From contig JAOASC010000028.1 of assembly GCA_025210295.1 (NCBI GenBank), positions 1-64,000 on the forward strand: a stretch of DNA of 64,000 nt, in the 5' to 3' direction. Origin of the DNA: Flavobacteriales bacterium (lineage in GTDB: Bacteria; Bacteroidota; Bacteroidia; Flavobacteriales_D; Parvicellaceae). The notes beneath the pieces are model-generated. The model was not told the DNA's origin, searched no databases, and saw only the letters and a program-made list of their open reading frames with translations. Position 1 is the first letter of the stretch, and every line of letters begins with the position of its first letter. Shown in pieces: positions 28,964 to 31,221 of this stretch. The position numbers and the translations under genes were made by a program.

Positions 28964-30400
28964 ATGTCGCTAAGAAATACGTGGTTTTATATCCCATTTC
29001 TTATTATATTTTGCTTAATAAGTTTTGTTAATCATTATAATTTTAAAACAGCTAATTTAGATTTAGGAGTCTATACCAACGCTCTCTATGATTACTCCAG
29101 GTTTCGCTTTAATTACAGTGAAGCTTTTAAAACTCAAGAAGAGAATATACTGGCAAGTCATTTCGACCTTTATTTACCTATTTTTTCTCTGTGCTCATAT
29201 TTGTTCAAATCATATACATTATTAATTGTTCAAATTGTGTTCGTTCTTTTGGGTGGTGTTGGAGTTTCAAAAGTTGTCTGGTTAAAGACTCAAAACATTA
29301 ACCTGAGCCGCTGGGCTAGTGTTAACTTTTTTTTGTTTTTTGGAATTTATACAGCTTTGGCTTATGATTATCATAGCAATGTGGTTGCTGCAATGTTGTT
29401 TCCTTGGTTACTTTATTATTTATATCAAAAAAAATATACACTTTTCTATCTAGTATGGTTCTTCATGATTATTGGGCAAGAAAATAGCTCGTTATGGCTG
29501 GTGTTTATAGGTATAGGGTTAATGTTTCAATTTAGAAAAGAGCTCAAGGTTATCAAACGTTTGATGGTGTTGGTTGTGGTTAGTGCAGTATATTTTTATG
29601 TTATTACACAATATGTAATGCCATATTTTAGGAATGATGGAGGTGTTGGCTATCGTTTTGAGTATGCTATTTTAGGAGACAGTGTAGGAGAAGCACTAGT
29701 CCAGATGATTTCACAACCATTTACAATGCTGAAGTATATGGTTTATGAAAACGATTGGTCAAAAGTTAGTTTAGTTAAGATAGAGTTAATCGTTTCGGTG
29801 TTGTTGTCTGGAGGATTGTTTTTGTATAAAAAACCGTCTTTCTTAATCATGCTAATCCCAATATTCTTTCAAAAATTATTGCATAATAACCCCGCCATTT
29901 GGGGAGTAGGATTTCATTATTCAATAGCTTTTTCCGTTGTTCTTTCTGTTGGTGCGTTTTTAGTGATTGGATCGTTGGAAAATCATAAAGTTCGATCCGT
30001 TTTAACGTCAGTTCTGGTTATTTCTTCTTTAGTTGTTACTATCCGTATAATGGATAACCCAATAGGATATGTCAATAAAGGGAATATCAGGTTTTATCAA
30101 CAGGCACACTACGAAAGAAATTATGAGCTCAACTTATTAAAAGAAGAATTAGACATTGTTCCACATGATGCAATAGTGAGTACTCAAAGCAGTATAATTC
30201 CTAATTTATCGTATCGGGATAAAATCTATTTATTTCCTAATGTTAAAGATGCTGAATATATTGTCTACTCAAAATATGAAGATACATATCCTTTGGGGAA
30301 AGAACAGGTTTTAAAAGAACTTTTTTCTTATATTCAAGCTCCTGAATGGGAAAGAATAGTTGATAAAGAATATTGTACCATTCTAAAAAGAAGACCATGA
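28964..30400 (+). CDS. DUF2079-family multipass membrane protein
   Basis: The 478-residue protein has about ten hydrophobic segments and the DUF2079 signature after the first helix: a DLGVYTNALYDYSR-type motif, then LASHFDLYLPIF. The family resembles GT-C-type membrane glycosyltransferases in layout; Asp and His residues in the first loop (ASHFD) are conserved in that position, but no activity has been shown. Its stop overlaps the next start as ATGA (30397-30400), which indicates translational coupling to the amidohydrolase. It follows the STAS gene by 3 bp. Confidence 0.8.
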   Translation: MSLRNTWFYIPFLIIFCLISFVNHYNFKTANLDLGVYTNALYDYSRFRFNYSEAFKTQEENILASHFDLYLPIFSLCSYLFKSYTLLIVQIVFVLLGGVGVSKVVWLKTQNINLSRWASVNFFLFFGIYTALAYDYHSNVVAAMLFPWLLYYLYQKKYTLFYLVWFFMIIGQENSSLWLVFIGIGLMFQFRKELKVIKRLMVLVVVSAVYFYVITQYVMPYFRNDGGVGYRFEYAILGDSVGEALVQMISQPFTMLKYMVYENDWSKVSLVKIELIVSVLLSGGLFLYKKPSFLIMLIPIFFQKLLHNNPAIWGVGFHYSIAFSVVLSVGAFLVIGSLENHKVRSVLTSVLVISSLVVTIRIMDNPIGYVNKGNIRFYQQAHYERNYELNLLKEELDIVPHDAIVSTQSSIIPNLSYRDKIYLFPNVKDAEYIVYSKYEDTYPLGKEQVLKELFSYIQAPEWERIVDKEYCTILKRRP

Positions 30401-31104
30401 AAAAAAATACACCATTTACTATAATTGAGCCAACAACTACTAAGATACCATTTATCTTAAGCATTCCACATTGTGGGATTGCATTTCCAGATGAAATAAA
30501 GGATAACTATACCTCAGATTTGATCAAACAACCAGACGATACCGATTGGTTTTTAGAGCGGTTGTATGCTTTTGCTTCAGACTTAGGAATTACAATTATT
30601 CATGCTAATTATAGTCGTTGGGTTATTGATTTAAACAGAGATCCAGAAAGTCAACCATTATACGATGATGGAAGAATTATTACAGCGTTAACTCCTGTAA
30701 CAGATTTCTTGGGGAATTCCATATATGCTCATCAGGAGTTGGCACCTAACCAAGAAGAAATAGAGAGAAGATTAGCAACCTATTATTGGCCCTATTATCA
30801 TCAAATAACGACTTTAATCAATGAGTTGCAAAAGGAACATGAACATGTGCTTTTTTGGGATGCACATTCCATTAGAAGTATGGTTCCTACAATTAGAAAA
30901 GACAAATTTCCAGCACTAATTTTGGGGAATAATGATGAAACTACAGCTGCTTCCCAATTGATAAAAGCAGCACTACAGTCTTTGCAACAATCAAACCATG
31001 AGGTAACCCATAATACACCATTTAAAGGAGGGCATTTAACCAGATATTTTGGAAAACCTGATCAAAATGTTCATGCTTTACAGCTAGAAATGATTAAGTC
31101 GTAG
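30397..31104 (+). pseudogene. N-formylglutamate amidohydrolase (HutG-like), cut by an in-frame TAG near the C-terminus
   Basis: The visible 235-residue product has the family blocks IPHCGIAFP (zinc His), VIDLNRDP, WDAHSIRS and FKGGHLTRYFG, and ends HALQLEMIKS at TAG 31102-31104. The same frame then stays open for 38 codons to TAA 31219-31221 and encodes YMTED followed by a helical tail. In HutG homologues the QLE-M block runs straight into an xYM(D/E)E motif and a C-terminal helix, so the amber codon sits inside the conserved domain. The full length of about 274 residues would match the family. The enzyme makes glutamate and formate from N-formylglutamate in histidine degradation. Cause: nonsense mutation, sequencing error or readthrough; the sequence does not decide. 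Confidence 0.8.
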
Positions 31105-31221
31105 TATATGACTGAAGACGAATTGTACTATAGTGAGGAAAAAGCGAATGAAATTCAAAAGATACTCCAATTAACGTTTAGAGCTTTAATTCAAGAATTA
31201 AATAACTTGAATCATAAATAA
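31105..31221 (+). other. In-frame C-terminal remainder of the amidohydrolase after the TAG
   Basis: The open frame continues directly after the TAG. An ATG at 31108, 3 nt after the stop, could reinitiate and give a 37-residue peptide MTEDELYYSEEK... that corresponds to the family's final helix. I treat it as the detached tail, not an independent gene. Confidence 0.7.

Follow-up and report, generated by a model that had tools for sequence, protein, structure and literature searches.

An in-frame TAG, probably a recent and private nonsense mutation, interrupts an N-formylglutamate amidohydrolase family gene in a Flavobacteriales bacterium

The window analysed here, a 64,000-nucleotide stretch of a Flavobacteriales genome, contains an interrupted member of the N-formylglutamate amidohydrolase (FGase) family, PF05013. 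The gene is recognised as such because its frame meets a TAG at residue 236, a column that holds a sense codon in all 41 relatives scored. The best explanation, with a probability of roughly 0.67, is a private, recent, single-base nonsense allele that truncates the enzyme. One base change, most simply from the leucine codon TTG to TAG and private to the strain or species, would have cut short, after residue 235, an N-formylglutamate amidohydrolase that is normal in other respects, and ordinary termination would be expected at the new stop. The event would be recent, because the sequence beyond the stop is undecayed. The features of the locus are as follows.

30397..31104, forward strand: FGase-family open reading frame, 235 amino acids from the ATG at 30397, closed by the premature TAG
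31102..31104, forward strand: in-frame TAG at residue 236, where the aligned relatives have Leu (35 of 41), Met (3) or Asn (3)
31105..31221, forward strand: what is left of the C-terminal part, 38 codons and a TAA, with the invariant Tyr-Met and the final helix (residues 247–272 of the model)
31108..31110, forward strand: ATG just 3′ of the TAG, coding for the Met of Tyr-Met; the conservation is of the protein sequence and not of an initiation site

The 235-residue chain ends in HALQLEMIKS, immediately before the TAG. Beyond it the same frame continues without a shift as YMTEDELYYSEEKANEIQKILQLTFRALIQELNNLNHK, and closes with a TAA at 31219–31221, so that the TAG sits 39 codons ahead of the normal end of the gene. 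A search of the whole genome with PF05013 flagged one internal TAG at this locus. Both the frame and the search thus agree with the first-pass annotation, which had described an unshifted frame broken by the TAG; the ATG that it had placed 3 nt past the stop is also present. The 235-residue part alone scores 196 bits against PF05013, while the joined protein scores 199.9 bits (curated cut-off 28.9) and spans positions 2–219 of the 219 in the model. Against NCBIfam TIGR02017 (N-formylglutamate deformylase), the joined protein reaches 234.3 bits, under the cut-off of 278.75. Membership of the FGase family is therefore secure, and the name HutG is only inferred. The gene resembles other members of PF05013 in its full-length domain match and in sharing the fold of the solved members 2q7s and 2odf, but differs from them in that its frame is cut at residue 236, where no aligned relative is cut.

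Comparison with relatives places the stop at a position that is otherwise always coding. Loci were collected from 43 relatives in the genus, elsewhere in the family and among named public genomes; L010, a duplicate whose contig is that of L004, and the frame-shifted L046 were left out, giving 41 scored relatives, among which further duplicates between two collections are possible. The codon at the TAG column encodes Leu in 35 of these, Met in three and Asn in three, six congeners being included in the count, and in none is it a stop. It is followed directly by YM in every relative scored (L042 is masked by N at this point), and then by a helix-like segment wherever the contig extends that far. 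An alignment with the solved structure 2q7s likewise places the stop on a Leu that is followed by YM. Tyr237 and Met238 are invariant across 38 of 38 aligned sequences, and several positions of the helix are at least 90% conserved. The first-pass annotation had stated that homologues read through this point with a YM motif, which is borne out by the sense codon, YM and helix of the 41 relatives. The contrary case, in which close relatives naturally end at KS, was looked for and is excluded, as none of the 41 ends at this position or has a gene split there.

The TAG itself is equally confined. It is shared with none of the 41 relatives, and a search of 299 genomes of the order for the local motif with TAG, as a degenerate pattern allowing up to two mismatches, found the TAG form in a single genome, that of the window. 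Seven other matches to the local motif have TTG, TTA or CTG instead. All six congeners use CTN leucine codons at this column, and the comparison therefore leaves the exact ancestral codon undecided; a T to A change from TTG to TAG would be the simplest path. One relative shows a break of a different kind. L046 (G017:C14:153732-154434, minus strand) comes from a different genus within the family, and its copy of the FGase gene is broken in two by a frame shift at about residues 152–155, either an independent break or an assembly error.

The tail beyond the stop retains the character of a protein-coding sequence. A profile built from the tails of relatives scores 53.2 bits against the tail in the window, whereas the best of 20,000 shuffles scores 16.3. 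The tail is no chance open frame, and is unmistakably homologous to the C-terminal helix of the family. The ratio of tail to body identity is 0.76 for the window protein, in the middle of the range among relatives. Synonymous sites are near saturation (pS about 0.7–0.9), and pN was therefore compared rather than dN/dS proper; the tail gives 0.29–0.40 against congeners and near relatives, and congeners give 0.33–0.39 among themselves. Since both measures are like those of relatives, the tail is considered undecayed. Such a tail would be expected from a mutation of recent date, from an error and from ongoing translation alike, and does not by itself choose among them.

Structural models indicate what the truncation removes. 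With the TAG read as Leu, the AlphaFold model of the complete chain has a mean pLDDT of 94.0 and includes helix 247–272 at high confidence. This model matches 2q7s (2q7s_B) with a Z of 31.5 and an rmsd of 2.3 over 258 aligned residues, then 2odf (Z 25.3), with M14-type carboxypeptidases next (Z about 11). The stop falls just past strand 225–233, which bears the invariant E231, so that the conserved H25, D48–D50, H157 and E231 columns are kept in the 235-residue chain, and the invariant Tyr237-Met238 and helix 247–272 are lost. By analogy with carboxypeptidase A, an enzyme of the M14 fold, E231 is probably the general base. Because the fold is M14-like, it is probable that the shortened product keeps the likely zinc ligands and the catalytic Glu. 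Loss of Tyr237-Met238 and of the C-terminal helix would nevertheless probably leave it unstable or inactive. For the truncated chain, the model shows the same elements at a mean pLDDT of 91.9, little below that of the full chain, and inactivation is thus not proven; AlphaFold is a poor judge of truncations, and this value is no evidence of stability.

Several observations suggest that TAG is read in the usual manner in this organism, as the first-pass annotation had supposed. Release factor 1 (prfA) is intact, with an open frame that lacks stops and a score of 497.6 bits against a cut-off of 423.25. A tRNA-model search gave 41 matches, 40 of them named by ARAGORN and the remaining one tRNA-like and lacking a normal anticodon arm. 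No CUA anticodon occurs among the 41 (150 of 358 first-look candidates scored, in a genome that is 95% complete). A genome-wide test of stop codons covered about 1.22 of 4.2 Mb, where TAG terminates 119 of 837 genes (about 14%). Coding-like extensions follow TAG in 8 of 119 cases and TAA in 50 of 621, which is no excess; raw counts of open extensions after TAG, TAA or TGA are a weak measure, as most of the long ones are simply a following gene that shares the frame. When short extensions clear of other open reading frames are considered, a clearly coding-like tail follows TAG at just one gene in the 1.22 Mb, that for the FGase. Reassignment of TAG, or a suppressor tRNA, is rejected on the basis of the intact RF1, the lack of a CUA tRNA in the search and the lack of an extension excess. 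Decoding by pyrrolysine or suppressor tRNAs would likewise insert an amino acid at an in-frame TAG; the difference is that no CUA-anticodon tRNA was found in this genome, and TAG acts as a normal stop.

Two other loci came to light in these surveys. A 117-nt tRNA-model match that has no ARAGORN call (L080:10587-10703, minus strand; G000:C48, about 210586–210702; 47.3 bits) has an enlarged arm in place of the anticodon arm. On one side lies a TROVE/Ro60-like open reading frame (L080:8164-10398), and on the other are PrfH-like (L080:11376-12077) and RtcB-like (L080:12074-13474) frames, all named by eye. A motif like GGTCAA...ACTTACTTC is repeated several times within L080:10400-10860. The element resembles a tRNA-mimic Y RNA of the YrlA type. 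The second locus is a TAA-terminated open reading frame (L083:14047-14502, plus strand; G000:C26), about 330 bases past a tRNA-Leu gene. In the 122 codons that follow in frame, the translation resembles a tyrosine recombinase, and the locus is probably the broken integrase of an integrated element.

The first-pass annotation had offered a nonsense mutation, an assembly error, readthrough and a two-chain enzyme as explanations, and it is the private nonsense mutation that the evidence favours. An assembly or sequencing error, with a sense codon (probably for Leu) really occupying the site and the enzyme whole, is unlikely, although it comes next in probability. It would account for a stop confined to one genome and a tail without decay. 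In addition, loss of the only stand-alone FGase from a genome in which the upstream pathway is apparently complete, with HutH, HutU and HutF, would be costly, which argues for error or residual function. On the other hand, the change is a substitution rather than a homopolymer indel, and it lies on a long contig of 310,679 bases. This TAG is also the only one with a clearly coding-like short tail in about 1.22 Mb, where just one or two further candidate in-frame breaks occur, so substitution errors are not rampant in the assembly. Readthrough of the TAG at a low or regulated level, yielding some full-length enzyme, is distinctly improbable. The preserved tail agrees with it, but is explained equally well by a young mutation. 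The TAG is conserved in no relative (0 of 41, and among 299 genomes in that of the window alone), RF1 is present, no CUA tRNA was found, and no effect of TAG is seen across the 1.22 Mb surveyed. Nor does the RNA at the stop and beyond it have unusual structure, with a z-score of +0.80 for 31090–31190 in a test of local structure other than pseudoknots. The exact stop context had no match in viral contigs. More improbable still is the proposal that this species maintains the TAG as a switch, with low-level readthrough setting the amount of FGase and limiting the last step of histidine breakdown.

The remaining explanations take the 235-residue chain as a working product. That it is a functional shortened enzyme with a dispensable tail is highly unlikely. 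The intact elements of its model and the conserved columns that it keeps speak for this, but the invariance of Tyr237 and Met238, the conservation of the helix and the lack of any relative ending there among the 41 scored speak against it. The least probable proposal, and one that is scarcely credible, is that reinitiation at the ATG at 31108 yields a 37-residue helix peptide that joins the shorter chain. The nearness of this ATG to the stop invites the idea, but its Met belongs to the conserved Tyr-Met of relatives, and an ATG is therefore expected here without any role in initiation; moreover, in none of the relatives is the gene divided at this point. Neither readthrough nor a two-chain enzyme gains positive support, given the lack of a CUA tRNA among the matches, the intact RF1, the unshared TAG and the lack of unusual RNA structure. 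The TAG looks like an ordinary mutation (or, less likely, an error), with no new kind of decoding.

In-frame stops in conserved prokaryotic genes are a documented phenomenon, surveyed by Belinky et al. 2021 (PMC7918605). Such stops mostly persist for no longer than polymorphisms do within populations; the interrupted genes are under purifying selection, and many of the stops are argued to be read through (PMC7918605). The survey thus speaks in general for readthrough. As a guard against artefacts, the survey retained only stops common to at least two species (PMC7918605). The FGase TAG is a single-genome example of such stops in conserved bacterial genes. It resembles the surveyed cases in that the sequence beyond the stop is still protein-like, but being present in one genome, it would fail the two-species filter. 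If the nonsense allele is real, it offers a clean case in which a change of one base has freshly abolished or weakened a metabolic enzyme, with the remainder intact. If it is an error, it is another wrongly truncated gene in a draft genome. The general view is the same whether the TAG is a real allele or an error.

The metabolic consequences of a real allele can be considered from the remainder of the pathway. Genes for hutH (607.6 bits, cut-off 539.15), hutU (429.7, cut-off 375) and hutF (457.2, cut-off 413.05) are found on other contigs. The product of HutF is N-formylglutamate, the substrate of FGase. Given these three enzymes and the lack of another stand-alone FGase in the PF05013 search, the interrupted gene is the strongest candidate for the final step of histidine breakdown, despite its score under the TIGR02017 cut-off, and that step of the N-formylglutamate route is probably impaired. 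The organism would then be predicted to be unable to finish histidine breakdown efficiently through N-formylglutamate. A bypass by formimidoylglutamase seems unlikely. The genome encodes three arginase-family proteins, and all of them stay under the formimidoylglutamase cut-off. By score two are an agmatinase and an arginase, and the third comes nearest to the formimidoylglutamase model, with 79.6 bits against 229.15. The next gene downstream resembles glutamate dehydrogenase, at scores under the curated cut-offs, and agrees loosely with a glutamate-yielding role of FGase.

A second gene copy as a replacement was also considered and rejected, as the only other PF05013 match, at 54.8 bits on C26, covers the N-terminal portion of a 668-residue QEGLA-motif protein and is no stand-alone FGase. 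In this protein (L002:169-2175, minus strand; G000:C26), the PF05013-like part is fused to a QEGLA-motif (TIGR02421) domain. Beside it lies an open reading frame that resembles a glutathione synthetase/ATP-grasp protein, named by eye.
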